From a virus: a stretch of DNA of 36,927 bases. Positions 3,521-27,678 of the stretch are shown piece after piece; position 1 is the first letter of the stretch; each line of letters opens with the position of its first letter. The notes beneath the pieces were generated by a model. It was not told the DNA's origin, did no database searches, and was given only the letters and a program-made list of their open reading frames with translations. The stretch is from positions 1 to 36,927 of IMG/VR virus record IMGVR_UViG_3300044843_000612; one strand, written 5' to 3'. Both the position numbers and the translations under genes were made by a program.

Positions 3521-5182
3521 TCAGTCACCAAATCCGGCGATTACGTCAATGTCCACTTCGATGTCGCTTTCGGCCGTTAAAAACACTACGGTTTTAGCGC
3601 TGACTAAATTATCCGGGTCGTCAGGCACTTCAATGCGCGCCGGATCGCGTAAGTAGACAACCTGCCCGTCCGGCCTAAGAATCTTTCCAAATATGTCCAT
3701 GGCGCTAATTGATTGCTGTCCGGTCAGGTATTTGTGCGCAGCGCTGGTTATGACGGACGCAGACAGCTGCCCAGAAAACCCGATCTTCGACACGGCCGAC
3801 ACGATAGCCGATTTGATGGCGGCAATATCGGGGTCTACTTCATTAGCCGCACGTTGAATTTTAAATCCAATTGTTGTTACGCATGGCACAGCTGCTTTTA
3901 CTAGAACGTCAGCTGTCCGGCAGCGCACATCGCGGCCATTCAAGAAGTCTTGCAGCTGTCCGATTAACGGCATACCCAGCGTGGTTATTGAGTAGACAGC
4001 CGTACTTTGCCGCGAGACTAAATTTGTTGGCGGCGTGTCGGCGTCGATAAACTGCAGCGTAAGCGTTCGATACCGCGTAAACGCGCTTTCTTGAAGCGTC
4101 TGTATGTCGGGAGCGTAGTCAGAGCCGGCTAAGTTATATCCGTGAGTGCGTGTTGTGATTTCGTAGCCGGCGTTTTGGTCGTCGCCAATTTTTGCAATAC
4201 GCAATATGTCGTAAAAACCCGGGGCGGTGTCTTTGTCTAAAGTCACTTGCCAAATTGTCCCGGCGGTTAAATCACCTGGAATAGCCGGGCCGATATAAAG
4301 CGCTGTTAACAGCTGCTCGATTTTTTGCGCTGTTGCGTTAGTCTGCGCGTAGATGTCGACCCGCCCGCCGCCCGACACTGGAAATAACCCATGTTGGTCG
4401 CGTTTTTGTTCTGCGTCGCCGAAGCCGACGATAGACATATGCGCGATGTTTTGAAAATCAGGCTGGGCGCGAATTAAGGCAGTAAACGCTTTTCTACCGC
4501 CAATAGTTTTGGCAGTTAAACCGTCAGCCAGCCGCCCGATGTATTCGGCATTTGTCGCCGCGTCGGCGCCGCCGGTAAAGTCAGTCGCGGCAATAATCGA
4601 AGCTACGTTTGTCGGGGCAACAGCTGGTGTGAACTTCGTACCGCGCGTTATGTTGCCGTTACTGCCGGCCGACGTTGCGACGACTGTAATTTTAAACGCG
4701 TATGTGCCGTCGCCTACCGGTACCATGGCGCGGGCGCCGTCAAAATTAACAGGGGCGCCGGGCGGAACACCGACAAACGCACGCGCTGGTAAGAAAGATA
4801 CGCCATTTGCCGTCAAATTCACGCCGGCAATCACAGGCGTATTTGTCGGCTTGTTTACAATTACTAACGCCTCGCCTGTGGCAACGGCGCCGGCGTTGCG
4901 CGTCAAATTAAAGTTCGACAATACCCGGTCGACGATATCCGCATCAGCAAGCTCGGGATTTTGTGTAATAGCCAGCAAGCTGTTACTTTGTCGTACACGG
5001 GTAACGTTTTCCTGTACCGCGGCGTTAATAGCGCTGTTAAAGTACAGCACAAGATCGTGGAAAACACCGCGCGAGAGCTCAACTTCTGGATGTCGCTCCT
5101 TTACCCACTGCGAAAAAAGCGCGAGCAATTCCTGCACGCGGGTCGCGTCCAGTTCAGACAGGCTGTTTATTTGTAGGGCCAT
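3521..5182 (-). CDS. Baseplate J-like wedge protein (gpJ/T4 gp6 family)
   Basis: This 553-residue protein shows the baseplate J pattern. The N-terminal helical region (LDATRVQELLALFSQWVKER) precedes a central beta region, then the segment FTGGADAATNAEYIGRLADG with AKTIGGRKAFTALIR, and a SIVGFGD motif. FTGGxD...T..EY..R is typical of J-family wedge proteins, where it joins the domain inserted in the hub-facing ring. T4 gp6 and P2 gpJ form the inner baseplate ring that triggers sheath contraction. The gene directly follows a gp25-like gene (6-base gap), the same order as P2 W-J and T4-type wedges, which strengthens the call. The ribosome binding site is weak, which fits translational coupling. 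Confidence 0.85.
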   Translation of the reverse strand: MALQINSLSELDATRVQELLALFSQWVKERHPEVELSRGVFHDLVLYFNSAINAAVQENVTRVRQSNSLLAITQNPELADADIVDRVLSNFNLTRNAGAVATGEALVIVNKPTNTPVIAGVNLTANGVSFLPARAFVGVPPGAPVNFDGARAMVPVGDGTYAFKITVVATSAGSNGNITRGTKFTPAVAPTNVASIIAATDFTGGADAATNAEYIGRLADGLTAKTIGGRKAFTALIRAQPDFQNIAHMSIVGFGDAEQKRDQHGLFPVSGGGRVDIYAQTNATAQKIEQLLTALYIGPAIPGDLTAGTIWQVTLDKDTAPGFYDILRIAKIGDDQNAGYEITTRTHGYNLAGSDYAPDIQTLQESAFTRYRTLTLQFIDADTPPTNLVSRQSTAVYSITTLGMPLIGQLQDFLNGRDVRCRTADVLVKAAVPCVTTIGFKIQRAANEVDPDIAAIKSAIVSAVSKIGFSGQLSASVITSAAHKYLTGQQSISAMDIFGKILRPDGQVVYLRDPARIEVPDDPDNLVSAKTVVFLTAESDIEVDIDVIAGFGD

Positions 5183-5188
5183 GTTGCA

Positions 5189-5665
5189 CTAAATTTTTTG
5201 AGGTAATGTGGCTATCGGCATAACAACTGTTCGGTTGTTCCCGGCACGACTGTATATTGCCACTTTAATGTTCGCATATCCCGGTAAAAAACTGATATCT
5301 AACAACTCGGCGTCGGCAAGTCGCTCGTCGTCGGGCCACGTGTTGTCTTCTTCTTTGTTGAGATTTACACGCGCAGTGTACGCCGCAAAATTAAACGCCA
5401 CGATAACTGCGCCAGAAGTGCGAAGCCGGCCGGTACGCACTAGCGTCATGAAATCTGTGCCGCGATCTGGCAAGCCCGGCATAGAGCCCGTCTCTGTTAA
5501 AAATTCCAGCAGCCAACGCTGCGCTAGTTTTTGCACACCTACGCATATTTGGCTTGTGCCGTCATTTGCAAATAGCAACAAACCCAGTTGGTTGTCGCCA
5601 ACTGATTTGACGTTTTGTAATGCCAAAAAATCGTATTTTCGGTTTGCGTAGTCAGCGATAGCCAT
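5189..5665 (-). CDS. gp25/gpW-like baseplate wedge protein
   Basis: A 158-residue protein immediately before the J-like gene. The segment around residues 44-71 (VQKLAQRWLLEFLTETGSMP followed by GLPDRGTDF) matches the gp25-like plan of a helix with Q/R-W-L, then a short loop and a P-D-R-G turn. gp25-like proteins sit at the wedge core and nucleate sheath polymerisation. The remainder is beta-rich with an acidic patch (NKEEDNTWPDDERL). Length is close to the usual 100-170 residues. The gp25-then-J order is widely conserved in contractile systems. Identification is by pattern and order, so moderate confidence. Confidence 0.65.
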   Translation of the reverse strand: MAIADYANRKYDFLALQNVKSVGDNQLGLLLFANDGTSQICVGVQKLAQRWLLEFLTETGSMPGLPDRGTDFMTLVRTGRLRTSGAVIVAFNFAAYTARVNLNKEEDNTWPDDERLADAELLDISFLPGYANIKVAIYSRAGNNRTVVMPIATLPQKI

Positions 5666-5671
5666 ATAGCA

Positions 5672-6145
5672 CTATTCGTTTTCACCAGTGAATCCGCCGA
5701 GCACTAAAAGCGTGTCCGCAGTTTTTGACACGATCGAGAATACGCCGTGCTCGCTCATGCCGTGGCCGTGCAGCCGGCCGTGCGCTACTGCGGCGCAGCG
5801 TACTGGCGTAGCGTGTCGAACCCGAAAGGCGCGTTCTTCTGCCGCCATAAAGTCAATTTGCGTTTTTAGCGCCATGATATCGCCGTACGTGCCGCGGTTA
5901 TCGCTGGAAGCAGCCGCTACGTCCAACGCATACGTTTCGTTTAATTTGTCCCTATTCCATGCTGGTTCGTGTAAATTAGGCACGTCTAGCAGGTCCGCTT
6001 CCGCCATACTTTCTGGTGTATGCCAAGCGCGCACTGAGTCTTGCCGGCGAAACTGCGCGCTTTGCGCTCTCGCGACGCGTTCAAGATCGTCGACGCGCTC
6101 TAAAAATTTAGAATCCAGGTTGCCTTTTTTGATGCCGTGCGCCAT
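5672..6145 (-). CDS. Baseplate-cluster protein of unknown function
   Basis: A 157-residue protein whose ATG overlaps the stop of the sigma-like gene by one base (TAATG), with an AGGGG ribosome binding site inside that gene. The N-terminal third is charged and helical (LDSKFLERVDDLERVARAQS). The C-terminal third is a compact beta region preceded by a histidine-rich stretch (AHGRLHGHGMSEHG) that could bind metal. It lies between a regulator-like gene and the gp25-like wedge gene, so a small baseplate component or assembly factor is plausible. I do not recognise the family. Confidence 0.55.
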   Translation of the reverse strand: MAHGIKKGNLDSKFLERVDDLERVARAQSAQFRRQDSVRAWHTPESMAEADLLDVPNLHEPAWNRDKLNETYALDVAAASSDNRGTYGDIMALKTQIDFMAAEERAFRVRHATPVRCAAVAHGRLHGHGMSEHGVFSIVSKTADTLLVLGGFTGENE

Positions 6146-6963
6146 TAGAAACCCCTATTGTTGAGCATTTTTTGGATCTTAGCCGCGCGCTGACTTACAG
6201 CGCCGGGCGTAATGTTCAGCTTGCGCGCAATCTCTTGCACGCTAACTTTTTTTCTACCGTTTCGCCCAAGCGCCATGTCCATTATCAATTTATTTATCGG
6301 GTCGAGGTCTCCGTAAACAAAATCCATCCACGCATCTTGTTCGCTCATCTGGCCCGGAATTTTACTAGCAACTGCGCCGCTATCGGCATAATCGTCCGCG
6401 GTTTCAATAACAGTAGAGCCCTCTGCGATCGGTTTATGGAACGCGCGAATTTTACCGATACGCCGTGTAGATAGGCCTGTCGCATCGGCTAGCTCGTCAT
6501 CGTTTGGATCTCTGCTTAATTTGTCTCTAAGCGCGTTCTCCGCTTCTGTCAGTTTTTGAAAGTCTAAACCGACTTGTTCTGGAATCGCTATGATATTTTG
6601 TTCTTGTGCTGACAACCGGCGTAGACTCTGCAGCTGCGACAGTAAATGCGTTTTGATGTTACCGCGCGCTGGATCAAAATTTTGCATGGCGCTCAGTGCC
6701 ATAAGCTTTGCTCGAGTGCGCATTGCCGAAGACGGCGTTGGGCCCACGTAGCTAGATAGCGCCGTATCAATTGTTGGCTGTACTTTTTGCAACAACTGGC
6801 TGTTCAGCGTTGGTGTTTGGTTTTTCAACCACTGCGAATGCAACGCCGCAAAATCGTCGCCGGGTTTTGGGTCGGCTTTTGAAAACGGCGGGGTAGTGTC
6901 GCCTAAAATAGACGGCATGCCGCGACTAGGCTGTGGTTGAAGTTTCGCCATTTTAACCGCCAT
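6145..6963 (-). CDS. Sigma-70-like RNA polymerase sigma factor embedded in baseplate cluster
   Basis: This 272-residue protein has sigma-70-like features. Region-2-like: MALSAMQNFDPARGN at 88-102, followed by KTHLLSQLQSLRR at 104-116, matching the A..A...FDP.RG...T.....LRR pattern. Region-3-like: about 127-175, with PEQVG, an AENALRDKL helix and RDPNDDELADATGLSTRRI. Region 4: a helix-turn-helix at about 239-266 (VSVQEIARKLNITPGAVSQR). The aromatic residues of region 2.3 that melt the -10 element are not evident, so promoter recognition may differ or the protein may be a co-regulator. Residues 1-60 are proline-rich and unassigned. Two starts are possible: ATG 6963, overlapping the hub gene by 11 bases, or ATG 6951, which has a better purine-rich leader. 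Phage sigma factors usually direct middle or late transcription; residence inside a structural operon is unusual. Confidence 0.75.
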   Translation of the reverse strand: MAVKMAKLQPQPSRGMPSILGDTTPPFSKADPKPGDDFAALHSQWLKNQTPTLNSQLLQKVQPTIDTALSSYVGPTPSSAMRTRAKLMALSAMQNFDPARGNIKTHLLSQLQSLRRLSAQEQNIIAIPEQVGLDFQKLTEAENALRDKLSRDPNDDELADATGLSTRRIGKIRAFHKPIAEGSTVIETADDYADSGAVASKIPGQMSEQDAWMDFVYGDLDPINKLIMDMALGRNGRKKVSVQEIARKLNITPGAVSQRAAKIQKMLNNRGF

Positions 6964-10129: not shown

Positions 10130-13100
10130 TCACGCTTGTTCGCGGACAGGCGGCCCGGCCGGTGTGCGCTCTGTGTTGTCTTTTGGCAGTGCGGACAGTA
10201 CCGCCCGGTCAACGCCGACCATTTTCAGCACGCCTGTAATAGCCATACCGCTTTTTCCATCGCCAGATGTGGCGGTACCGGCGACAGAACTAATTGCTTT
10301 AACTATGTCGTCTCCAAGCGACGGCATAGTTACATTGTTAATGGTAGCCGTCTCGATTTTGAAATCTTTGTCAAACGCGCTCTTTATTGCGTCGCCAATG
10401 GCAGGACCAACCGTACTAGCAATAGCGCTGCCGATACCCGTCGGGTCTGCTGCTCCAGAAGCGCCGGCCATTTTTGCCGCGTCGCCCTCTATCGTTTCCA
10501 TAATTTCTTTTGTGCTTTTACCGCCCGCTTCGGTTCTTTTTGCTTCCTCTTCTTGGAGTGTTTTTTCAAGCTTTTCTGGCTCTTTCACTAATTTTCGTTT
10601 TTCTTCTTCCGTGCCCTCTCGCATGACGCGCGCAACTTCGCTGTCCGCGGGTATAGCGCCCGCAGTTATTTGATCCTGAATTGCTGCAACTTTTGAAAGC
10701 GTGGCGGTGTCGCTCATGTCTGTCAACCCGCCAAGAACTTTGTGCGCCCGCGCCATTTTTGTGGCGTCGAGTAGTACCTGTTGCCGCTCTGCAGATAACC
10801 CAGAACCTTTAAGCTGTTTCTCTAAGTCGGTTATTTTGTCTTTGTCTGTGTTGTCAGTTATTGCCTTTTCAATAGATGTTTCAACGCCTTTGCGCGCCGT
10901 GGCGTTCATACCATCGCCAAACAGGTCGACGATGCCGCTTGCAGTGACTACGCCGGTTTCAAGTTGTTTGCCAAACCGCGCGTACGCCTCTATTTTGCTT
11001 TTCTTTGACGTATCCTTCATGACGTCAACATGCTCTAACTGCCGACGCGCTTCGGCTTCCGTCATTGTGTCTGACGTTAGTCCTAACTCAGTTGCGGCTT
11101 TTGCATCGGTTACGTATTCGCGAATACCGCCAAGTTCGGCGAGCGCTGTGTATGCAGAGCCGTCGGCGATCGCGGCGGCTATCTTCTTGTCGTTGCCGCC
11201 GTAGATTGATTCCAGCGCCGCAGACATTGCGTCTTTAGCTGCGCCGCCTTTGCCGTATGCTTTCTTTATGTTGTCGGCCAACTGCGCCGTTGTTAGCAGC
11301 TTTGTTTTGCCGTCAAACGCGGTTTTATTCGCGCCGCCAACTAATCGTTCTTGTAGTTGGTCAAATGTTAATCCACCACTAGCGAGTTTTTTGATTACGT
11401 CCTCGTCTGCATCTACGGCTGACCGATACTCCGAATCCATAGCCGCATACACGTTTTTCATACTAGCTCTGCCGGCGTCTTTCGACGCGTCGTCGGTGCC
11501 GCCACCAACGGCTGAATAAAATTGCTTACGGACATCGACGTCGGAAATAATGCCGAGCATCGCTTCTGGATTTCCGCCGGAATCAACAAATCGTTGTATA
11601 ACGTTGCTGCCGTCACCCAGACGATCCGCATCAAAAATTGCCGCGCGAGACAAATTACGCTGTTGGCGGACGCGTGCTTCGGCCAGACCTCGCAGATTAA
11701 ACATCTGCTGCATCTGGCCCATTTTCATGTTGTAATTACCTTCAACGAATACACCAGCTTCACCCTGTTGTGTCGCCAGAAAATCACGAAGATCAGCGTC
11801 ATTTTTAAACATACCGCCCGCGCCAATCATCAAATCTTTCGATCGGCGCATTACCTGGTCTTCGCTTAACCCCGGATTTGTTTCGCGAACGTGCGCTTGC
11901 ACTGCACGCTGCATCGATGATTGCAGCACATTGATACGCTCATCTGCCGTCATTGTCGTGTTGATAGTATCGACAAGAGACGTGGCAAGACTTTGACTTA
12001 TGCGAGATTGCAAGGCGCCTCTCTCGGCGTCGGGTACTGTGTTACCAATGCGATCAGTAATTCCGGAGTTGCCTGCAAAATTTGCCGCCAAGTTTTGTTT
12101 GAGCTCAGCTGCCTGCGCGTGCAGCGCGCGATTAGCGATCATGAACTCCTGCGTATTAGAGTCTCTGTAATACGCGTTTGCCTGCGAGCGCGAAATCTCC
12201 GCACGATCAAAATGCTCATTGAAGAATGTGCCGGGATTGTTGCCCATTTGTTCGTATATGTTTACTTCTTTATTTAGCCCCTCGTCAAAGTACGTCGAGT
12301 CGCCGCGTTTCAACGCTTCAACCATTTTTATGAGATTTTTACCGCGATTTTGCGTAAAATCTTTGTCGTTCTTGTTTTCTTCGACTATGCGATTGGCCAC
12401 GCCGATAAGCCGGCCGACGCCGGAGGCATCAGCGCGCATCCCCTGATCTAGCGCGAACATGGCGGCTTTTGTGGGATCCATGCGACCGAAACCTGGCGTG
12501 AAACCGCCTGTATCCCTTAAAGCTCTGCTGCGCTCCATTGCGCCGATAACGTTTTCTGACGCAATGCTTCTGGAAAGGCCGTACTGGTCAGCTAAAGCGC
12601 CAGATCTCGCTGTCAAACCCATCAGCGATTCCAGACTGACGCCAGAGTCGCGCGACGCCATCTGCATACGCCGCATGATGTTTTCAACTTTACCCGGCGA
12701 CATACTATTCATCGAGTTTTGAGTTAATGCTTCCATGGCCGCCATCAATTGACCCATGGGAGCATTACCCATACCGTTATCGCCAAATATCTCTCGAACG
12801 GATGCTATGGCATCGGTGTAGCCTTTCAGTGTGTTTGTCACACGGTTGGCGTCTATTTTGCGCACAGCATCTGCGCCGCCCTCTAGTTTTGTTAACTCGT
12901 CAACAGTGTCCCCGCGATCAAGCGCGTCATTAATTTCACTTGAAAAGCTAGGGTCGCGCAGTGATTTGTCGCGAAACGCTTTGCGCCTGTCGTACGAATT
13001 GAGGGCCGCAGTGCTTTCCGGCAGCAATCCACGCTGCGACAATTCGTTCATAATGTCGCCAACGCGGCCGGCCGAGAACCCGGAAATGTCATTAATGTTT

Positions 13101-13678
13101 GTGCCGGGGCCGTACAGGTTGTTGTAGATCTGGTCCGAAAATGCCTGCATCGTCTCGCCCGACATTGAGTCTCCGCCCAAGCTGTCGGCGCGCGAAAAGC
13201 CCATCCGACCGATACCGCGAGCTAGCCGAGCCTTGCTGCCTTTTCGCCCAAAGAAAATGTCTTCCGACATTTGCGGACCAAGTAGCATTTCCGACAGCAT
13301 CTGCACAGGCATGCTGTTTAATAACCCGGCACCTTGCTGCAACTGGGCTGCCTGTACGCCTGTTAGCGGGTCGGTTGTATAGTTGCTGCGGACCTTGAGC
13401 ATCGTGCCATAAATGGCCTCTTTGTCCGCCGCACGCGCCTGCATTTCGACGCCGCGGCTCGCCTGCATGTATTTACTAGAGGCGTACTGATCTAAAATGC
13501 CCTGCGCCGGAAACTGTTGGGGCAAAAACTTCCCCTGGCCGAGCATTTGCGGCACAATAAGCGCAAAAAGCATGTCTAGGTTCGGATTGCCCGAGCCTAG
13601 CGGGTTGTAATTCGGCTGCGGCGGTTTAAACAGCCCGTTTGGCTGCGGGACAGCACTGTAATCGTTTGGATCTGCCAT
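10130..13678 (-). CDS. Tail tape measure protein
   Basis: The largest gene of the window, 1182 residues, mostly predicted helix with many Ala, Gln, Met and Gly, which is typical of tape measure proteins. These fill the tail tube, set its length and are ejected into the host. The N-terminus is proline/asparagine-rich (FKPPQPNYNPLGSGNPN). The long central part consists of helical stretches. The final 200 residues include a charged coil (KLEKTLQEEEAKRTEAGG), a small glycine/alanine-rich hydrophobic stretch (GIGSAIASTVGPAIGDAI) and a short beta tail. No lytic transglycosylase or peptidase motif is evident. The start overlaps the chaperone stop (TAATG) and has AAAGGA upstream. At roughly 0.15 nm per residue this would imply a tail near 175 nm, an inference only. 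Confidence 0.85.
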   Translation of the reverse strand: MADPNDYSAVPQPNGLFKPPQPNYNPLGSGNPNLDMLFALIVPQMLGQGKFLPQQFPAQGILDQYASSKYMQASRGVEMQARAADKEAIYGTMLKVRSNYTTDPLTGVQAAQLQQGAGLLNSMPVQMLSEMLLGPQMSEDIFFGRKGSKARLARGIGRMGFSRADSLGGDSMSGETMQAFSDQIYNNLYGPGTNINDISGFSAGRVGDIMNELSQRGLLPESTAALNSYDRRKAFRDKSLRDPSFSSEINDALDRGDTVDELTKLEGGADAVRKIDANRVTNTLKGYTDAIASVREIFGDNGMGNAPMGQLMAAMEALTQNSMNSMSPGKVENIMRRMQMASRDSGVSLESLMGLTARSGALADQYGLSRSIASENVIGAMERSRALRDTGGFTPGFGRMDPTKAAMFALDQGMRADASGVGRLIGVANRIVEENKNDKDFTQNRGKNLIKMVEALKRGDSTYFDEGLNKEVNIYEQMGNNPGTFFNEHFDRAEISRSQANAYYRDSNTQEFMIANRALHAQAAELKQNLAANFAGNSGITDRIGNTVPDAERGALQSRISQSLATSLVDTINTTMTADERINVLQSSMQRAVQAHVRETNPGLSEDQVMRRSKDLMIGAGGMFKNDADLRDFLATQQGEAGVFVEGNYNMKMGQMQQMFNLRGLAEARVRQQRNLSRAAIFDADRLGDGSNVIQRFVDSGGNPEAMLGIISDVDVRKQFYSAVGGGTDDASKDAGRASMKNVYAAMDSEYRSAVDADEDVIKKLASGGLTFDQLQERLVGGANKTAFDGKTKLLTTAQLADNIKKAYGKGGAAKDAMSAALESIYGGNDKKIAAAIADGSAYTALAELGGIREYVTDAKAATELGLTSDTMTEAEARRQLEHVDVMKDTSKKSKIEAYARFGKQLETGVVTASGIVDLFGDGMNATARKGVETSIEKAITDNTDKDKITDLEKQLKGSGLSAERQQVLLDATKMARAHKVLGGLTDMSDTATLSKVAAIQDQITAGAIPADSEVARVMREGTEEEKRKLVKEPEKLEKTLQEEEAKRTEAGGKSTKEIMETIEGDAAKMAGASGAADPTGIGSAIASTVGPAIGDAIKSAFDKDFKIETATINNVTMPSLGDDIVKAISSVAGTATSGDGKSGMAITGVLKMVGVDRAVLSALPKDNTERTPAGPPVREQA

Positions 13679-14085
13679 TATTGCTGTCCTTTAGCCGGCG
13701 GCGGTTTATTGTCTTTTCCCGATACCAGCTCTCGATATTGCGCGATTAAATCGCCGTATTTGCTGTCTATTGTATCTTTTTCGTCCTTTGGTTTCTCTGA
13801 CCCCTCCCACGGAAAAACGCTTTCCCGCAACCGTGTCAGTATGCTAGACGCCTGTTTTTTCGCATTTGACCAGCTATCGTCGTCCAGTCGGCTATGCGAT
13901 ACATACGCCAACCAGTGATCGTGCAAAGCGGCTAACAGCCGCTCGTCGGCCTGCCGCGCCACGTCGCGCAGGATCAAGACATGCCGTAAACGCCACTGAG
14001 GGTTGTAGGGATCGGCTTTGGCGTAATTAAACGCGCCGGTGCTAGCGGCGCGCACCATGTACGCCGCTACGCGATCCCTTGCCAA
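13678..14085 (-). CDS. Tail assembly chaperone, downstream (-1) frame segment
   Basis: A 135-residue frame overlapping the end of the 338-residue upstream gene and ending at the tape measure start. The only starts near its beginning are a TTG at 14085 inside the slippery run and an ATG 27 bases further on without a well-spaced ribosome binding site. It is therefore best read as the C-terminal part of a -1 frameshift product, like gpT in the lambda gpG-GT pair. The sequence is helical and charged (WRLRHVLILRDVARQADERL, then NAKKQASSILTRLRESVFPW) and ends in a proline/lysine-rich tail. Tail assembly chaperones bind the tape measure and recruit tube subunits and are not in the virion. The role is inferred from position and the recoding signal. 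Confidence 0.7.
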   Translation of the reverse strand: MARDRVAAYMVRAASTGAFNYAKADPYNPQWRLRHVLILRDVARQADERLLAALHDHWLAYVSHSRLDDDSWSNAKKQASSILTRLRESVFPWEGSEKPKDEKDTIDSKYGDLIAQYRELVSGKDNKPPPAKGQQ

Positions 14086-14091
14086 AAATTT
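14043..14091 (-). promoter_or_regulatory. Candidate -1 programmed ribosomal frameshift signal
   Basis: Read on the minus strand, the heptamer A AAT TTT (14091-14085) is in the X XXY YYZ register of the upstream gene (codons CCA AAT TTT TGG). After a -1 slip the next codon is TTG at 14085, exactly the beginning of the downstream frame. The upstream frame otherwise stops at TAG 14069-14067. Fifteen bases past the heptamer is a perfect 8-bp stem, TAGCGGCG (14069-14062) with CGCCGCTA (14050-14043), and an 11-base loop; the zero-frame stop lies within the stem. The spacer is longer than the usual 5-9 bases. The location just before a tape measure gene is where such recoding is known. Confidence 0.75.
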
Positions 14092-15083
14092 GGCTCTAAC
14101 GCCATCGCCTCCAATGTTTCATAAAGTCTTTGGAATTGCCTAAATTGTGTGCCAACAATGCGGCGGGTGACTTCGTTTTTAAGCGTGCTGGCTAGCACGT
14201 ATTTGCGTAATCGGACTAAATCCGACGCAGAGCTAATGTCCGATTCGTTAGGAAGCTCTCTGCCCGCCACGTCGTCGAGTTCGGGAACAATTATTTCGGG
14301 CTTGTCGTTGATTACGATTTTTTCAATAGAGCACGCCAGACGATACTCGAAAAACCGTAAAAACCACTCTGTGTCGTTTAAGAAGTCTCCGGCTTTCTGG
14401 TCGAGCAGAAGCTGATGGTGTATTTCTGTGTTTTCTTCAGCCATCAAGCTGCGGAAATGCACGCGGTACCGGCCGCCAAGCAACTCGTATGCTTTTTTAA
14501 ACCGTTCGCCGCCAAGCGTTATGGCGATGAACACTTCCTTATCTTCCTGCGTAACGTCGTTATCAAACTTGAGCCGCATGTCCCAGTTGCAGCGCGGGCA
14601 AAACGGCTCAATTGCGGGCGACGCCGGCAGTGGTTCTGGAATTTCGCTGGTTACGCTGTCCGCAGCTTCTTCGGGCTGCGCAGCTGGCGTTTCTTTTGCG
14701 GCTTCTGCGGCCACGGCTTCGCGATCATCTACAATCTGCACAACTGTATCTGTTTGGTCATTTTTCGCGGCTATTTGCGCAAGTAATTGCCTCGCGGACT
14801 CATCCATAGCTATTCCGCCCGTATCAATCGTCTTTTTAGCGCCGGCTTGGCCCGCGTTTTTAGCCGCTTGCAGCGCCGCCTTTACAAGCGCCACATCGGC
14901 CGGCGTCATCAGCTCGGCGTCGACGTAAATGCCGGGCTTTTTGCTTTCAGGCGTTCTGCCGTGAATGTCGGCTAGGATGTCGCCCATGTTTTCTGGAATA
15001 GGCTCGCCTTTCGTCCAGTCAAATTGCTGGAGCGTTTTTTGCGTGAATTCCGAAACATACTGCGCTGAATCGATAACGCCCAT
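14067..15083 (-). CDS. Tail assembly chaperone, upstream frame (zinc-knuckle containing)
   Basis: A 338-residue protein starting at ATG 15083 after AGGAGCG. The first 100 residues are helical and mention no known domain; residues 120-160 form an acidic alanine/proline-rich linker. A CPRC pair at 162-165 might be half of a metal site. The conserved-looking core (about 190-260) reads LGGERFKKAYELLGGRYRVH followed by FRSLMAEENTEI, the Y.LfGG..v.FR.L...E pattern of phage tail assembly or baseplate-hub chaperones. It ends in the slippery sequence that could fuse it to the next frame, giving a product of about 470 residues. Larger than typical gpG-type proteins. The role is inferred from the core pattern and the gene position. 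Confidence 0.65.
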   Translation of the reverse strand: MGVIDSAQYVSEFTQKTLQQFDWTKGEPIPENMGDILADIHGRTPESKKPGIYVDAELMTPADVALVKAALQAAKNAGQAGAKKTIDTGGIAMDESARQLLAQIAAKNDQTDTVVQIVDDREAVAAEAAKETPAAQPEEAADSVTSEIPEPLPASPAIEPFCPRCNWDMRLKFDNDVTQEDKEVFIAITLGGERFKKAYELLGGRYRVHFRSLMAEENTEIHHQLLLDQKAGDFLNDTEWFLRFFEYRLACSIEKIVINDKPEIIVPELDDVAGRELPNESDISSASDLVRLRKYVLASTLKNEVTRRIVGTQFRQFQRLYETLEAMALEPNFWQGIA

Positions 15084-15092
15084 ACCGCGCTC

Positions 15093-18029
15093 CTATTTCT
15101 TGATGATGTAATACCCGTCTTTTAACGACTTACCGCCAACCACGCTGCTGAACTGCGGGTTTTTATACGGACCGGCCAAGTCGCCAGAGCCGGATCCGCG
15201 GTCTTTGTCCCGAAACGCCTTGCCGACAACCTCTACAATCGAGAAGTCTTGTTGTTTAAACACATCCTTATCCGTCATTTTTGCTTTACCCGGAAACGGC
15301 CACGTCTCTACGCCGCCGCCAGTCTTCACAGGCTTTTCTTCCCACAGCCCTGTATTCTGTCCGCCAATTCGCGCGTACTGCTGCCACCTATCTTCAAAGA
15401 TTACGAAGTCGTTGTCGACGCGATAATCTTCGTCGCGGCGAAAACTGAATTCAAGTTTTTTGATAGTGTCAGCGTTACCGGGGCGGTCGTCGTTGTACCA
15501 GAGAACCGCCCACACTTCTGTGTCTAGCTGACTAAGTGTTTTCGGGAGCTCGACCGTGGCAAACGTTTTGATTGTTTCAACTGCCGCGTTAACTTGTCCG
15601 CTGCAATCCCCTTGACATGGTCCGACTAATCCGCCCTTTTGCGTTAATATGTGCCCGGTATTCGTAACGATATTCCCGCGGCCAAGGAACGAGTAACCGT
15701 TACCGCGCCCATCTGCGGCTACCGGCCCATTTACATACAGTTTGCTGCCCAACAATGTCTGTCGGCGCTTAAATACGTTAGCGACACCACGAGCTGCGCC
15801 GGGCGTGGCAAAATTACGGAAATACTGGTAAAACCCGCCGTCTAAATCAGCATACTGAAATAAGTTGCGCGACTTTGTGACTATGTTGCCATCGCCGAGA
15901 CTTGCGTCGAGCGTAATGCATCCGGCTTGCGCTCCTGTTCCTCCGTATCCGCCAGTTGTGCGCATGTAGATGTTTTTACCGAGGCCGATTACCTCGGATT
16001 CTTTAGCGCGCAGTACAACGCCGCCGAATATCACTGCATCGCCGGGTTCGTCAAAGTTGTACGTCGGGGCTGTGGCGCGGCTTTCGATTAGTACGCCGCC
16101 CTGTTTCTTTGACGTGTCATTACCGGCCAGAATCATGACATTCTGCTCGGCTTTAATCCGTACACTTTCTTCCGTTGTGGATATGTCTACGCCGCTGTTG
16201 GCCCGCATAATAATGTCGCGGCCGGCCCACATTTGCGCGTTTTTACCGGGCTTCAACCAGACGTCGCCGGGAGCTGAAATTGTAATACTGCCCGCGCACA
16301 TGCGAATTTCAGCGCCATAGCCGTCGCCAATAACCACCGCGCCGTCTTCAAGCAGCGATATGTACGACTCAGACTCATAAAATTTCTGACCTACATAGCG
16401 ATGATCAATATTAAGCGTTTTAGGCGACGGCTGCGGCAAGTACATCGAGCCCTTCAACGTTGTGTAGTCAGGGATGTTGCTGTTGTACTGCGCGTGAGTA
16501 AGCTCGCTTTGCTCGTATGTTCTGTAATCTTTTGCATGCCAGTGAAACGGATGCAAACCAACATAATTAAACAAATAGCCGTGCAGATCTAGAATTCCGG
16601 CGGCTCTTTGTAAGTGCGGATGTTTTTCGTCTGTTGTGGCTACGTCGCCAGTAATCGTGTGATCTTTGCCGCTGCCGTTGCCGTATTTACCGGCTGCTTT
16701 GTAGTTCTTGTCCGCGTCATCTCCGTTCCCGTCTTCTGGTCGGCGCATTCTGGCCGGCACCGGAAGCAGCATACGTTTAGCGAGCGTAATGCCTTTGGCT
16801 GACGCAATAAATCTACGGCCGTCAATACTGGTATTGTCTTCCGATAAACCAATTGGCGCATTCGCCGGATCTTCGATGTTAACCGGCGCTGTTTCTTTTG
16901 CCGGTCCTTTGTTTGCTTGTAGCGCGTCGGTTGTCCATTCGTTCTGTACTTTTGTTTCAAACGGCGCGCTGGGATCGCCTTTACCTGTAAATTTGTAAGC
17001 CCACCACGCCGGCGAAGAAGCTGGCGCGCATACAACGGTACGCTCTCCTTGGCCGTAATAACCGTAAAACTTCTGTGTGCGATGGAATGGCTGCTGGCTT
17101 TCGTACTTATTTTCCCAATTCGAGTAATAAGGCCGGCCGGCAAGGGTGGCAAACTGATCGGGCGTGTATTCCTGCACCATATCGCGGCCGGGCTTTAACA
17201 TGCCCATTGCTTCCCACGGATAAGGCGAATAGCCCTGCGTGTCGTTGTACTCGGCCTGATCCATGTATGCGTCGCGCTCATGGCCGGCCGTCCACGTCTG
17301 CATGTTGTAACCGCCAACGCGCAGAAGCTGATCGTGATAGAAGCCGAATATTCCAGTAAACTCGTTTACCGCCATCTGCACCATGAAGTCATCCAGCGTG
17401 ACCTTGAGCCCGGTAACACTGGTAGCGCCCCACTCGCTGGCATGCGTGCTGTCGAACGGCTTCCACGAGCTGAAATTCGTCATTCCGCCGTTGTCGGTCA
17501 GTTGCAAGTAGCGCCGATGCGCTTCGTCAGCCCGGGACCGCGATAAGCCAGAAATATTGTCGTGAATTGATTCGCGGCCTAATACGGACGGATCAGGTAT
17601 TACGCCGAGAATAAATGCGTATTTCAGCTGCGAGTGAAGGTACAGCAGCACAGATGTACCAGGTGCGTACGTATTTATCTCTGTGGCGCCAATTACCGCC
17701 TGGCTCGTCGACATAAGCGGTACGGCCAGCTTTGGCGCGGTAGCCCGCTCGATGCTTACGCGATAACAATTGGTCAGGGCAGAGCCGTCGACGATCCGGC
17801 CGTAGCAGATGTGCCCGTCGTTATTGAAACTGGTGGTAAACGCAGTCGTCTTTCCGAGTGGGTCGGAAATAGGCGATAGATTAGCGCTATGCGCGCTTGT
17901 CGCGGTTTGACTAGCGTGTGCCGTCCTGTTTTCGAGCAGCCGTACGTCTTCAGTTAAATCTGGCTTGAGCGGAGCTGGCGTAGGACGTAACGGCGCACCA
18001 TCGCCGATGATTGCACCCATGAATACCAC
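15093..18029 (-). CDS. Baseplate central spike protein (OB-fold plus beta-helix)
   Basis: A 978-residue protein. Residues about 70-145 form an OB-like barrel (GHICYGRIVDGS ... TYAPGTSVLLYLHSQLKYAF then ILGVIPDP), as in gpV/gp5/VgrG proteins. Residues about 560-720 show short repeated strands (GAEIRMCAGSITISAPGDVW, AQMWAGRDIIMRANSG, VRIKAEQNVMILAGN), typical of the triple beta-helix of membrane-piercing spikes. The 150-545 region, with many Tyr/Trp, is unusual and not a lysozyme as in T4 gp5. The C-terminal 250 residues form an extra domain beyond the helix. GTG 18029 gives the longest form; ATG 18020, four codons in, may be the real start, and neither has a good ribosome binding site. A terminator separates it from the tube gene. 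Confidence 0.75.
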   Translation of the reverse strand: MVFMGAIIGDGAPLRPTPAPLKPDLTEDVRLLENRTAHASQTATSAHSANLSPISDPLGKTTAFTTSFNNDGHICYGRIVDGSALTNCYRVSIERATAPKLAVPLMSTSQAVIGATEINTYAPGTSVLLYLHSQLKYAFILGVIPDPSVLGRESIHDNISGLSRSRADEAHRRYLQLTDNGGMTNFSSWKPFDSTHASEWGATSVTGLKVTLDDFMVQMAVNEFTGIFGFYHDQLLRVGGYNMQTWTAGHERDAYMDQAEYNDTQGYSPYPWEAMGMLKPGRDMVQEYTPDQFATLAGRPYYSNWENKYESQQPFHRTQKFYGYYGQGERTVVCAPASSPAWWAYKFTGKGDPSAPFETKVQNEWTTDALQANKGPAKETAPVNIEDPANAPIGLSEDNTSIDGRRFIASAKGITLAKRMLLPVPARMRRPEDGNGDDADKNYKAAGKYGNGSGKDHTITGDVATTDEKHPHLQRAAGILDLHGYLFNYVGLHPFHWHAKDYRTYEQSELTHAQYNSNIPDYTTLKGSMYLPQPSPKTLNIDHRYVGQKFYESESYISLLEDGAVVIGDGYGAEIRMCAGSITISAPGDVWLKPGKNAQMWAGRDIIMRANSGVDISTTEESVRIKAEQNVMILAGNDTSKKQGGVLIESRATAPTYNFDEPGDAVIFGGVVLRAKESEVIGLGKNIYMRTTGGYGGTGAQAGCITLDASLGDGNIVTKSRNLFQYADLDGGFYQYFRNFATPGAARGVANVFKRRQTLLGSKLYVNGPVAADGRGNGYSFLGRGNIVTNTGHILTQKGGLVGPCQGDCSGQVNAAVETIKTFATVELPKTLSQLDTEVWAVLWYNDDRPGNADTIKKLEFSFRRDEDYRVDNDFVIFEDRWQQYARIGGQNTGLWEEKPVKTGGGVETWPFPGKAKMTDKDVFKQQDFSIVEVVGKAFRDKDRGSGSGDLAGPYKNPQFSSVVGGKSLKDGYYIIKK

Positions 18030-18661: not shown

Positions 18662-21562
18662 TTAGATCACCAAGTGCAGCTCGATGTTGTTCAGCGGCGC
18701 GGGCACCACCAGATCGAGCACAATTTCGATGCGATCCTTCAGCAGCGGATGAATCCGCAGAATACGAATCGACCCGTCAATAAGCTGCGAACCGAGCTCC
18801 TCGGTGTAGCCGTTTGACTGGAAAAAGCGAATGAGCTGATTGACTTCGCGTGTCAGCTTATCAACCATCGACTGCGTAGCGTTGGTGCGGCCGATATACG
18901 GACGCAGCCGACGCAGGAACAGATAAGAAATCGAGTCAACGTTGCGGCGAATCATCTCTTCGCGGCGGTTGAGGTCGAGATTATCTGTGGTCAGCGCATG
19001 CCGCGAGTGCGGCGTGCCGTCGCGATCTTCTGTCACAATCCACACGCCAGCTTCCGCAAGCCGGTTAAGCTGCGTTTCATTAAACAGCTTGTAAGACCGC
19101 GAGAAGTCGTCAAATCCGGCAACTTCAACATTTGTCAGCCCCTGATGCGGTACGACGCCCGACGCCAGACCAGCGACCGCGGCGGCCAGGTGGTACCCGG
19201 CCTGCATACGACCGCCAGAACCGACTTGATCCGGCCAGACAGCGCAAATACGCCGGCTGCCGAAGCTGCCAGCTGTTGTTGCTACGTCATCGGCTAGCTC
19301 GTTGCGGTCAAAGCTGTGCCAGATTTCAACACGCTCGGCCGATGTAACAGCGGCGGTTGTGCCGGAATACAGCAGCAACGAGCTCTCCGACAGCACGCTG
19401 TCTACCACGTACTCCGAGTAAGTCTCGACGCCAAAACCGTCCACAGAAAAGTTGTACCGTACGATGTCGCCGGGCCGAACGTTGTTGGTGATGAAGTAGC
19501 CCGAACCGGCCGGAACTTGCAGCAATGTATACTGGTTGCCGACCGCGTTGTTATTGTCCGACACCGTAGCTAGTACAGGGTTAGCAATTGTGTTGCCGGA
19601 CACGCCAGCGATTGGCGCACCTTGGCCGACAACCATAACATTCGTGCGAGACGGCAGCGCGAAAAACCCGGCTTTCCAGTTATTCGCGATTTCGTTCGAC
19701 TCGCCGACAACTTGCGCAGCGTACAGGTCTTGCACATCCTTGCGGAAAGTCAGCGGGACGAGATTGTAAAAATCGTCCCGACCCTTGAGCCGCTCCAGCA
19801 CGTTTACCCAGCTGTCAAGATCTTCGGGATCCTGCACGGCCGTGTACTTAACGACAGTGCCGTTCGAGTTGGAAAGCGCCTTGTATACGCCCCACTTGAG
19901 CGGATTGTCGGGATCGAGCGGACCGCGAATGTCATCGATGTCTGCGACGGTGCTGATTCCGTTTACCTCGTCGGTAAGCTCGGACAGCCACTCGCGGTAC
20001 TCGACGTACAGATCGCCCTGTTTGACGTACAGCGGCTGTTCTACGCCGTTTAGTGTCCATTCCGGATGGTAAGCTACAACGTCAGCTTTAACGCAAATTT
20101 GCGTAGCTTCCGTCTCGTAGTTAACGAGCGGCGCGAAGCCGGTACGGTTGCGCGAGACCTCAATGTCGTCTTTAATGTAGAGCCGCAGGTCTAGCGACGT
20201 AGCGTCAGCCATTTCGCCCGGCAGGTCGTGCTTTAGAATAAGCCTGTTAACCTCGCCGGCCATGCTCGACGTCACGCCGATGTACCATTTGTCGCCCTTG
20301 CGCATTTTGGTAACAGCGCCGTTTGAATTGTTAACAAACGCGACAGCAACGCCATGCGAGCCAATTGTTACAAAACCACCAGCAAGAGCGCTGGAAGTTG
20401 TAACCTCTGTCGGGCCCGAAAAGTCGTAGCCGTTAGCGGTACGCACAGAAATCTCAGGGAAGTCTGTGGCGTTTACGCCAAGCTCGCCGCCCTTCGTGCA
20501 TTCGACGATGTACGTGTCGTTTTTGTCGCCGGTATACGTGCTCGGAGCAGCGCTGCTGCCGTTACTCGAAATAGCTTTAACTTGCGTGTAAGCTTCGGTA
20601 ACGACAACCTGCCACTTCTGACCAACAACAAATTCTTCTGTAGCAACGCCGGCTGTAACCGCGGCGTCGCCGCAGTCTTCAGCTTCAGACAGTTCAAACG
20701 TGACAGTTAAACCGCGAGAACCGATCGCCACGTCGCTGCCGAGCGTGCCGGGGTTTAATTCCGCCACGTCGTCAAGCTTGCTGGCGGACCGTACGCGCAG
20801 TTTTGTGGCGTTTGTGCAACCAGCGACAGAGCTCTTGATTACCTCGATGGTGTACGTTTCGTTGATTACGCCATCAGCGAGGCCGCTATACCCGGTAGCG
20901 TCAACAGCGGTCAGCTTAACGCAATTCGAAACGCCACCGACTTGGAGGTAGTTATTACCGGACGTAGGTGTCGAGTTTGACGCGGCAACCGTCGCCTGAT
21001 TCGCAGCATCGGCAGACGCATTCGAAATAACGGCGGCAACCGACTTACTCGCAAAGCCAGTTACGGTTGTCCACAGTTCGGTCTCTGTGCACTCTTCGCC
21101 AGTTACCGAGCGCAGATATACTACGTCGCCAACTTTGACGTCGCGGTCCTTAAAAGCGCCGCTGCGATTATAGCCGCCGTTCTTTTTAAAGCTAACGCCG
21201 GCGTTAGCGCTGACGTCGCCATCAACCGACTCAATCCAGTTCGGGCGACTAGATACCGGCTGAACAACTGTCGCGGTATCAGAAATAACTTTTTCGTAGT
21301 ACAGCATGAGCGCGTCGTCGATGAACAGCTTGGTATAGCTGTCGTCAACAAGCGAGCCAGGTACGCGACCCGGCCATGTGTAGCATGTGTCGTTTTCGTA
21401 GTCATACGCGCCCAGCCGGCTAAGCGCCTTTTCAGTCGCGTCAGAGTACCGGTGCAGCATCGCATTCGGGCCGGAGATGTGCGCGCGCAGCGGTTCGGTG
21501 ATTTCGGTCGGAACGATGCTGAATTCTTGGAAGACAAGAACCTGCGGTTTTACGTATGCCAT
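18662..21562 (-). CDS. Contractile tail sheath protein (enlarged, 966 residues)
   Basis: The C-terminal 147 residues are sheath-like: FSRSYKLFNETQLNRLAEAG then VWIVTEDRDGTPHSRHALTT (820-859), a long helical stretch with EEMIRRNVDSISYLFLRRLR, and the terminal strand (LKDRIEIVLDLVVPAPLNNI) that links neighbouring subunits in sheath polymers. The N-terminal start (VKPQVLVFQEFSIVPTEI) is the other linking arm. At 966 residues it is much longer than T4 gp18 (659). The extra length lies mainly at about 140-440 and includes two related beta domains, about 228-324 and 347-432, each with a TY.(I)EC/V strand, an IGS.G...V.F stretch and a GxKW..xVT end. These probably decorate the sheath surface. Codon use is G/C-ending, like the capsid gene, as expected for an abundant product. 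Confidence 0.93.
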   Translation of the reverse strand: MAYVKPQVLVFQEFSIVPTEITEPLRAHISGPNAMLHRYSDATEKALSRLGAYDYENDTCYTWPGRVPGSLVDDSYTKLFIDDALMLYYEKVISDTATVVQPVSSRPNWIESVDGDVSANAGVSFKKNGGYNRSGAFKDRDVKVGDVVYLRSVTGEECTETELWTTVTGFASKSVAAVISNASADAANQATVAASNSTPTSGNNYLQVGGVSNCVKLTAVDATGYSGLADGVINETYTIEVIKSSVAGCTNATKLRVRSASKLDDVAELNPGTLGSDVAIGSRGLTVTFELSEAEDCGDAAVTAGVATEEFVVGQKWQVVVTEAYTQVKAISSNGSSAAPSTYTGDKNDTYIVECTKGGELGVNATDFPEISVRTANGYDFSGPTEVTTSSALAGGFVTIGSHGVAVAFVNNSNGAVTKMRKGDKWYIGVTSSMAGEVNRLILKHDLPGEMADATSLDLRLYIKDDIEVSRNRTGFAPLVNYETEATQICVKADVVAYHPEWTLNGVEQPLYVKQGDLYVEYREWLSELTDEVNGISTVADIDDIRGPLDPDNPLKWGVYKALSNSNGTVVKYTAVQDPEDLDSWVNVLERLKGRDDFYNLVPLTFRKDVQDLYAAQVVGESNEIANNWKAGFFALPSRTNVMVVGQGAPIAGVSGNTIANPVLATVSDNNNAVGNQYTLLQVPAGSGYFITNNVRPGDIVRYNFSVDGFGVETYSEYVVDSVLSESSLLLYSGTTAAVTSAERVEIWHSFDRNELADDVATTAGSFGSRRICAVWPDQVGSGGRMQAGYHLAAAVAGLASGVVPHQGLTNVEVAGFDDFSRSYKLFNETQLNRLAEAGVWIVTEDRDGTPHSRHALTTDNLDLNRREEMIRRNVDSISYLFLRRLRPYIGRTNATQSMVDKLTREVNQLIRFFQSNGYTEELGSQLIDGSIRILRIHPLLKDRIEIVLDLVVPAPLNNIELHLVI

Positions 21563-26681: not shown

Positions 26682-26713
26682 GTCATGTGCTCCTAGATGT
26701 TAAGGCTTTGTTA

Positions 26714-27640
26714 TCACTTGAAGTCCACGCGGGCCAGACCGTTCGTGTGACCGAACGAGCCGCCTTGCGTGTTGTAGGCGAAGTACTCAAGCATGTAAGC
26801 CTCACGACGGATGTACATCGTGGTGGGCTCAAGCTCGTAGTTCTTGCCGATGAACTTCGGCGAGGCGAACATGAACAGGCTGTCCGTCGGGATGAGACCA
26901 GTCTTGATGGTCACGATCCAGCGGCAGTTGAGGAAGTTCGTCTCGGCCCAGCCGTTCTTGATGATGTCCTGCGAGAAGTCGCCGCCCATCTCGTCGCGAC
27001 CGAACTTGAGGAGTTCCTTGATCGTGATGTTATTCACGAGGCAAGTCTCAACCTCAAAGTGCGACGAGGTGCGGGGCATAACCTTCAGCGCGTCCACCAG
27101 CGTTTCACGGGTGATACCGCCGTAGATCTCTTCGTACTGCACATAACCAGACGCAACGTTCGCCACACCCGGGGTCGGGAGGACGGCGTTGAACGCCGCG
27201 ATAAACTTGGAGTCTTCTTCGGCGAGCATGTCCTTGATCATGTTGTCCGACAGAACCTGGCGGATGTCCATGACGTAGGTGCGCAGCTCGTCAACGTCCT
27301 TCACAGCGCGAGGCGACACGATCCGGTCAAACATGACGCGGTAGCGCGGGCCACGGATGTAGAAGTTGATCGGAAGTGTCGCAAACGGGAGCGACACAGC
27401 CGCCGGGGAATCGGGCTCCTTGTCCACAACCTTAACGGGCTTGTCAGTGTCAACCTGACGGTCAAGCTCGTCGTTGGTGATGGTCAGCGGCGGCATAATC
27501 CGCCGGTAGAACCCGTCTTCACGCATCTTGGTGCGCGTGAAGTCGTTAACCGCATCAATGGCCTGCTTCTGCATGCCGGGGGTATCAAGCTGTTCAAACA
27601 GCGTCTCGTTGAGCAGCTGTACTTCTTGCTGTGTGGGCAT
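26714..27640 (-). CDS. Major capsid protein (HK97-fold type)
   Basis: A 308-residue protein in the classic place after protease and scaffold genes. It starts with a helical N-arm (QEVQLLNETLFEQLDTPGMQ), then DFTRTKMREDGFYRRIMPP, a beta hinge (PFATLPINFYIRGPRYRVMF), a long spine-like helix (ELRTYVMDIRQVLSDNMIKD) and a C-terminal beta part (LFMFASPKFIGKNYELEPTT), matching the layout of HK97-type capsid subunits found in myoviruses. A separate scaffold explains the lack of a delta domain. A strong GGAGGT lies 7 bases before ATG. Codon use is strikingly G/C-ending (AAG for Lys, TTC for Phe), unlike baseplate genes, as for a very abundant protein. Confidence 0.85.
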   Translation of the reverse strand: MPTQQEVQLLNETLFEQLDTPGMQKQAIDAVNDFTRTKMREDGFYRRIMPPLTITNDELDRQVDTDKPVKVVDKEPDSPAAVSLPFATLPINFYIRGPRYRVMFDRIVSPRAVKDVDELRTYVMDIRQVLSDNMIKDMLAEEDSKFIAAFNAVLPTPGVANVASGYVQYEEIYGGITRETLVDALKVMPRTSSHFEVETCLVNNITIKELLKFGRDEMGGDFSQDIIKNGWAETNFLNCRWIVTIKTGLIPTDSLFMFASPKFIGKNYELEPTTMYIRREAYMLEYFAYNTQGGSFGHTNGLARVDFK

Positions 27641-27647
27641 TTTGGGA

Positions 27648-27653
27648 ACCTCC
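27648..27653 (-). promoter_or_regulatory. Strong ribosome binding site of major capsid gene
   Basis: GGAGGT in the context ACACGGAGGT, 7 bases before ATG 27640. The same ACACGGAGGT decamer precedes the decoration candidate (GGAGGT 28258-28263) and the 140-residue gene (28743-28748), with spacings of 6 and 7 bases, so the head genes share a strong leader. Confidence 0.75.
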
Positions 27654-27678
27654 GTGTTCCTAGTTAGTTAGGGGTAGA

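Follow-up and report, generated by a model that had tools for sequence, protein, structure and literature searches.

Long-tailed phages widely conserve frameshifting of the G/GT type, with T4 as the exception (PMC5009743). In the lambda gpG/gpGT system, two overlapping ORFs lie right before the tape measure gene, and a −1 shift shortly before the first ORF ends yields a minor fused product (PMC5009743). The RNA structures known to stimulate such shifts start 5-9 nt past the slip site, and a recognized error in describing them is to take a lower stem for spacer (PMC5009743). For the slip site itself, all Z_ZZN tetramers have been measured in E. coli, where a strong stimulator gives the order A_AAG >> U_UUC > U_UUU (Sharma et al., PMC4066793). 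Given a structural stimulator, U_UUC and U_UUU, the two tetramers found in the present relatives, thus rank second and third in shift-proneness, and R_RRU_UUY heptamers shift better than their mixed composition predicts (PMC4066793). In addition, the PRFect study found that most annotated phage frameshift overlaps are without an XXXYYYZ heptamer (PMC10885494). The phage locus analyzed here has the same gene layout as lambda, with a shift and a minor fused product predicted at the corresponding place, although its genes have no detectable sequence relation to gpG/gpGT. Our comparison of related sequences indicates that the tail assembly chaperone of this divergent large myophage is very probably made by a lambda G/GT-type −1 ribosomal frameshift, which would occur on a U_UUY site under the influence of a conserved stimulatory RNA.

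The window, meaning the whole stretch of DNA analyzed, is a 36.9-kb virus record with the putative chaperone genes on the minus strand. ORF1 (gpG/TAC-N-like; 14067..15083, −) encodes a zero-frame product of 338 aa and stops at TAG, and ORF2 (gpT/TAC-C-like; 13678..14118, −) lies in the −1 frame. This frame runs open between 14118 and the stop at 13678, and TTG (14085-14083) is its first codon after the slip. The ATG of the presumed tape measure gene (10130..13678, −; 1182 aa), so designated for its position and length, overlaps the ORF2 stop by 1 base. Further along lie a weakly matched tail sheath gene (18665-21562; PHROG, 3.7e-5), whose product is ~28-31% identical to those of Salmonella phage Arash and three Vibrio phages, genes for a Baseplate_J protein (3524-5182) and a baseplate-like protein (5192-5665), and a sigma-factor-like ORF (6148-6963, wider span 6145-6963; −), which together form a contractile-tail module. 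The sigma-70-like protein, with matches to a PHROG sigma factor (1.4e-8) and to Pfam Sigma70_r3 (3.2e-7), is thereby encoded within the tail and baseplate gene block. A 978-aa ORF with a GTG start (15093-18029, −) separates the chaperone from the presumed tube gene, a small ORF after the sheath; it has no convincing family, Glyco_transf_7C being a weak match below the cut-off. Elsewhere in the window, two ORFs on opposite strands overlap almost totally (26687-27667, +, 326 aa; 26714-27640, −, 308 aa).

By sequence, neither ORF1 nor ORF2 finds anything usable in Pfam, PHROGs or the PDB, and the presumed tape measure protein matches no named family. The AlphaFold model of ORF1 is of moderate confidence (pLDDT 77) with a well predicted C-terminal alpha/beta part. 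Its fold finds nothing in the PDB, and in a viral Foldseek search it gives weak matches (best E ~2e-3, none with E <= 0.001), several of them annotated as tail assembly chaperones. ORF2 is predicted to be helical, and its viral fold search returned nothing convincing. Residues 162-170 of ORF1 (CPRCNWDMR) contain a CPxCxWD motif that looks like one half of a zinc-binding site, with its two Cys unchanged throughout the 32 main relatives and the aligned distant ones.

Our comparison draws on about 50 related IMG/VR contigs with 42 distinct junctions between the two ORFs. Protein searches of IMG/VR gave 40 ORF1 loci and from these a main set of 32 distinct junctions, window included, in which ORF1 is 39-55% identical to that of the window. 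Five contigs were added by a DNA pattern scan for the stem described below (L085, L091, L094, L095 and L108), and a further five by a distant-profile search. Since these last five were selected by ORF1 protein only, they are unbiased as to RNA; the pattern-picked contigs provide no evidence for the stem, for which the remaining 37 junctions are usable. The contigs reach 229 kb, and the group is divergent, with distant member L095 showing 27-33% identity to the others in its alignment. ORF1 and ORF2 have no match in annotated phage records, and ORF1 relatives are absent from the bacterial and archaeal genomes searched. Gene order is kept throughout: a tape-measure-sized ORF directly follows ORF2 at 41 of 41 checkable junctions (L091, with 1.1 kb of sequence only, was left out), starting −53 to +18 nt relative to the ORF2 stop. 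This ORF has at least 804 aa in every case except L124, where 355 aa precede the contig end.

The 3′ end of ORF1 reads CCA AAT TTT TGG CAA GGG ATC GCG TAG. Near the end of this 338-codon ORF, A_AAT_TTT (14091-14085, −) does stand in the X_XXY_YYZ register, as had been noted, with 15 nt between it and the TAG, and contains the conserved core U_UUU (14088-14085). The ORFs of the window, with 11,442 codons in total, hold 60 in-frame XXXYYYZ heptamers, four of which are A_AAT_TTT. The heptamer by itself is therefore unremarkable, and it is conservation in the relatives that lifts the case far above chance. U_UUY is in register at all 42 junctions, whereas a canonical X_XXY_YYZ heptamer is present at only 8 of them, window included (AAGTTTT 24, AAATTTT 8, GGATTTT 6, GTCTTTT 2, GTCTTTC 2). 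The initial annotation had named relatives that keep both frames but lose the heptamer as evidence against frameshifting, and formally such relatives are the majority (34 of 42), yet every one of them retains U_UUY in register. The P-site codon varies between AAT, AGT, GAT and TCT with a final T throughout, and AAATTTT is scattered over several separate parts of the tree. For the commonest slip sequence, A_AGU_UUU, the P-site tRNA would re-pair poorly after the −1 move, which we count against a frameshift. As for an upstream Shine-Dalgarno stimulator, the window has a GGAGG ~18 nt from the slip site that is not conserved, and this candidate was rejected.

A run of T at the shift site also raises the question of whether RNA polymerase, and not the ribosome, changes the frame by slipping on T5. 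Five or more T in a row are found at 40 of 42 junctions, but in L125 and L127 (TCTTTCTGG) the run is interrupted by a C that preserves the ribosomal motif U_UUC. Five T are short for polymerase slippage, which moreover offers no role for RNA structure and spacing, and we regard this explanation as scarcely credible.

The fusion of the two chaperone ORFs by a −1 frameshift, as originally proposed, is strongly supported by the comparative evidence, while the mechanism given for it needs correction. The stimulator had been taken to be an 8-bp hairpin behind a bare spacer of 15 nt. Instead, this spacer holds GGGATCG (14072..14078, −), the 5′ arm of a larger 7-bp outer stem whose 3′ arm, CGATCCC (14008..14014, −), follows 57 nt past the 5′ arm, and this outer stem replaces the hairpin as the main candidate stimulator. 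The actual spacer is TGGCAA (14079..14084, −), and its length of 6 nt (TGGNNN) is the same at all 42 junctions and within the range of known stimulators; adding the pair A14079-T14007 would extend the window's stem to 8 bp and shorten its spacer to 5 nt. The pairing probability of the outer stem in the window is 0.99, and the folding energy of the element region is −40.3 kcal/mol (z −3.4). Across the 32 main junctions, 99.6% of its cells are paired. The stem is complete at 39 of all 42 junctions, once with a G-U pair (L153), and imperfect in L035 and L124 (6/7 pairs each) and L123 (5/7). Rfam has no family for this RNA element.

Both arms are nearly invariant and the outer stem shows no covariation, which means its conservation might have another cause. 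In every pair, however, the amino acids R-D-R or D-P lock one base, and with one side fixed by the protein, covariation is hardly possible. The role of the outer stem as RNA is instead suggested by its synonymous sites, its single G-U pair and its position. Five synonymous sites within it always carry the pairing base in the main set (third positions G of R, T of D, C of A, T of D and C of P). The two Asp codons are GAT at 32/32 and 31/31 junctions, whereas GAC is commoner at conserved Asp columns of ORF1, and the Pro codon is CCC at 32/32 although CCC is a minority Pro codon elsewhere. Columns with a single codon make up 8 of 16 inside the element and 1 of 72 outside it (Fisher p 1.6e-6, a guide only, as the sequences are related and relatedness is uncorrected).

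These observations also bear on the alternative that GGGATCG...CGATCCC is an inverted repeat acting as DNA or as a protein-binding site, or some other regulatory RNA, and that the frameshift uses the inner hairpin only or no structure. Near-invariant arms without compensatory change are what such a repeat would show. Yet the locking of one side by R-D-R and D-P leaves little room for covariation in any case, the pairing base occupies all five free sites, L153 carries a G-U pair of the kind permitted in RNA, and a start 6 nt past the slip fits the known stimulators (5-9 nt, PMC5009743). We therefore consider the inverted repeat improbable. The spacing between the arms is strict. When IMG/VR was scanned for the DNA stem pattern and any gap between 42 and 72 was allowed, 42 stretches matched and all had a gap of 57. 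The same scan of 257 Gb of bacterial and archaeal genomes gave six matches, about as many as we would expect by chance, and none with a gap of 57.

Inside the outer stem, the perfect 8-bp stem described earlier is present as claimed: TAGCGGCG (14069-14062) pairs with CGCCGCTA (14050-14043), starts 15 nt past the heptamer and contains the zero-frame TAG. At random positions, a perfect stem of 8 bp or more starts no more than 20 nt away in 0.8% of cases. This stem belongs to inner hairpin 2 (14043..14069, −), which is followed by the region of inner hairpin 3 (14018..14039, −; alignment columns 59-64 with 75-80), weak in the window. In contrast to the outer stem, both hairpins covary, at column pairs 33-51 and 36-48 in hairpin 2 and 63-76 and 60-79 in hairpin 3. 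The top three covarying pairs in the alignment all lie in these two helices, the covariation score was reached by none of 500 shuffles, and parsimony on a protein tree infers ~15 both-sided, pair-keeping changes at four pairs. In most relatives, covariation and folding point to an outer stem that closes two hairpins as a three-way junction. In the window, L002, L004 and the five distant members found by pattern, the outer stem is retained (P ~0.99) and other folds are preferred inside it. In the window's minimum-energy fold, a longer imperfect inner hairpin replaces the 8-bp stem, and folding with that stem is 6 kcal/mol worse (−31.7 vs −37.7 kcal/mol). Inspection by eye for loop-loop pairing gave no pseudoknot candidate.

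The loop of hairpin 2 also holds an ATG (14058-14056) in frame with ORF2, making the earlier statement that the second frame lacks a normal start inexact. This codon suggests a reading without any frameshift, in which ORF2 would be a gene of its own, its translation started at ATG 14058 by coupled re-initiation. The ATG stands 8 nt past the ORF1 stop, a short distance typical of coupling, and its Met is kept at 40 of 42 junctions. The other two junctions carry a Leu codon (L094) and an Ile codon (L123), and AUG initiation is consequently unavailable there. No Shine-Dalgarno is apparent before the ATG, and the ORF1 stops range from just after TGG to 27 nt past the slip codon. In addition, nearly all relatives share the post-slip −1 reading LxRDRxAAxMVRAA...DP, in which nine codons upstream of the ATG are conserved as protein, whereas the zero-frame tail after the slip has only 1 to about 10 codons and ends in varying stops (TAG, TGA, TAA). 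Re-initiation, which further fails to explain why U_UUY and the 6-nt spacing are fixed, is in our judgement very unlikely. Recoding of the TAG stop was rejected by inspection, with relatives using TAG, TGA and TAA in the same role. Separately, ATGGTG (14058-14053, −; columns 40-45) in the hairpin 2 loop is invariant at 32/32 main junctions, and so is the third base of its Val codon (GTG 32/32), which the protein leaves free, a constraint at the level of the nucleotides.

Under the favored −1 ribosomal frameshift, we infer that most ribosomes would read ORF1 to its stop and produce a short tail assembly chaperone. A minority, paused by the downstream RNA, would slip back one base as tRNA-Phe reads UUU, a step that in the window may be aided by the Asn codon AAU re-pairing to AAA. 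Translation would continue as TTG GCA AGG GAT... in the −1 frame, giving a chaperone fused to ~135 ORF2 residues. The putative stimulator is a 71-nt RNA that starts 6 nt past the slip, its outer stem presumably closing an inner fold. By analogy with lambda, the tape measure protein might be coated by the short form, while the fused form might recruit tail-tube subunits. We also entertain the more speculative and on balance unlikely idea that the 71-nt element represents an RNA family of its own, a branched, dedicated frameshift stimulator inherited, with its nearly invariant outer stem, throughout a group of uncultivated large myophages. Its near-invariance and two competing inner folds would then reflect a tunable switch that sets the ratio of short to fused product, for example through binding of the chaperone or another factor, and hence tail assembly.

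The comparative data suggest that a lambda-type chaperone frameshift very probably operates also in this divergent group of large phages with contractile tails, and they separate the features that are kept, U_UUY and a stem at +6, from the canonical-looking one, the heptamer. The fused product would be missed by gene callers in all these genomes. Furthermore, the natural series AAU, AGU, GAU and UCU at the P site, combined with one stimulator, lends itself to testing the weight of P-site re-pairing in bacterial −1 frameshifting.

Several described systems share part of this arrangement. T4-like chaperones reportedly, according to work by Vladimirov in 2022, use a mechanism other than frameshifting. 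T4 gp26/gp51/gp28 resemble the present proteins as assembly factors for the contractile-tail hub or tape measure, and differ in that a frameshift is indicated for the present group. A relationship was considered and rejected, with no profile similarity and hhalign probabilities of 5.4% (gp26) and 0.8% (gp51). Similar in its slip site is the −1 shift described in 2025 for Vandenendeviridae and Andersonviridae (phage Adele, PMC12846349), whose chaperone genes have an invariant GTTTTT and likewise place the shift on a T run; the available text of that report mentions no such RNA element for its site. Citrobacter phage Moogle (KM236239; L206, 13863-14264) carries A_AGT_TTT_TTC in its annotated chaperone frameshift region, and A_AGT_TTT is the commonest heptamer of the present relatives, but the fold in Moogle is weak with no comparable stem at +6. 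For the RNA, a likeness exists with IS911, where a three-way junction has been described as stimulator (Rettberg 1999, as cited in PMC4066793 and PMC5009743). It too is a branched bacterial −1 stimulator, though with a different sequence, slip site and gene context, and branching here is supported in the relatives and not favored in the window. In the open-access literature we found no report of the conserved stem-type stimulator of this group, although absence there is not proof. What is new is the combination of these features in the present phages, above all the fixed-length, nearly invariant stimulator. Compared with lambda gpG/gpGT, the canonical heptamer of this group is not conserved, whereas the RNA downstream of it is strongly conserved.
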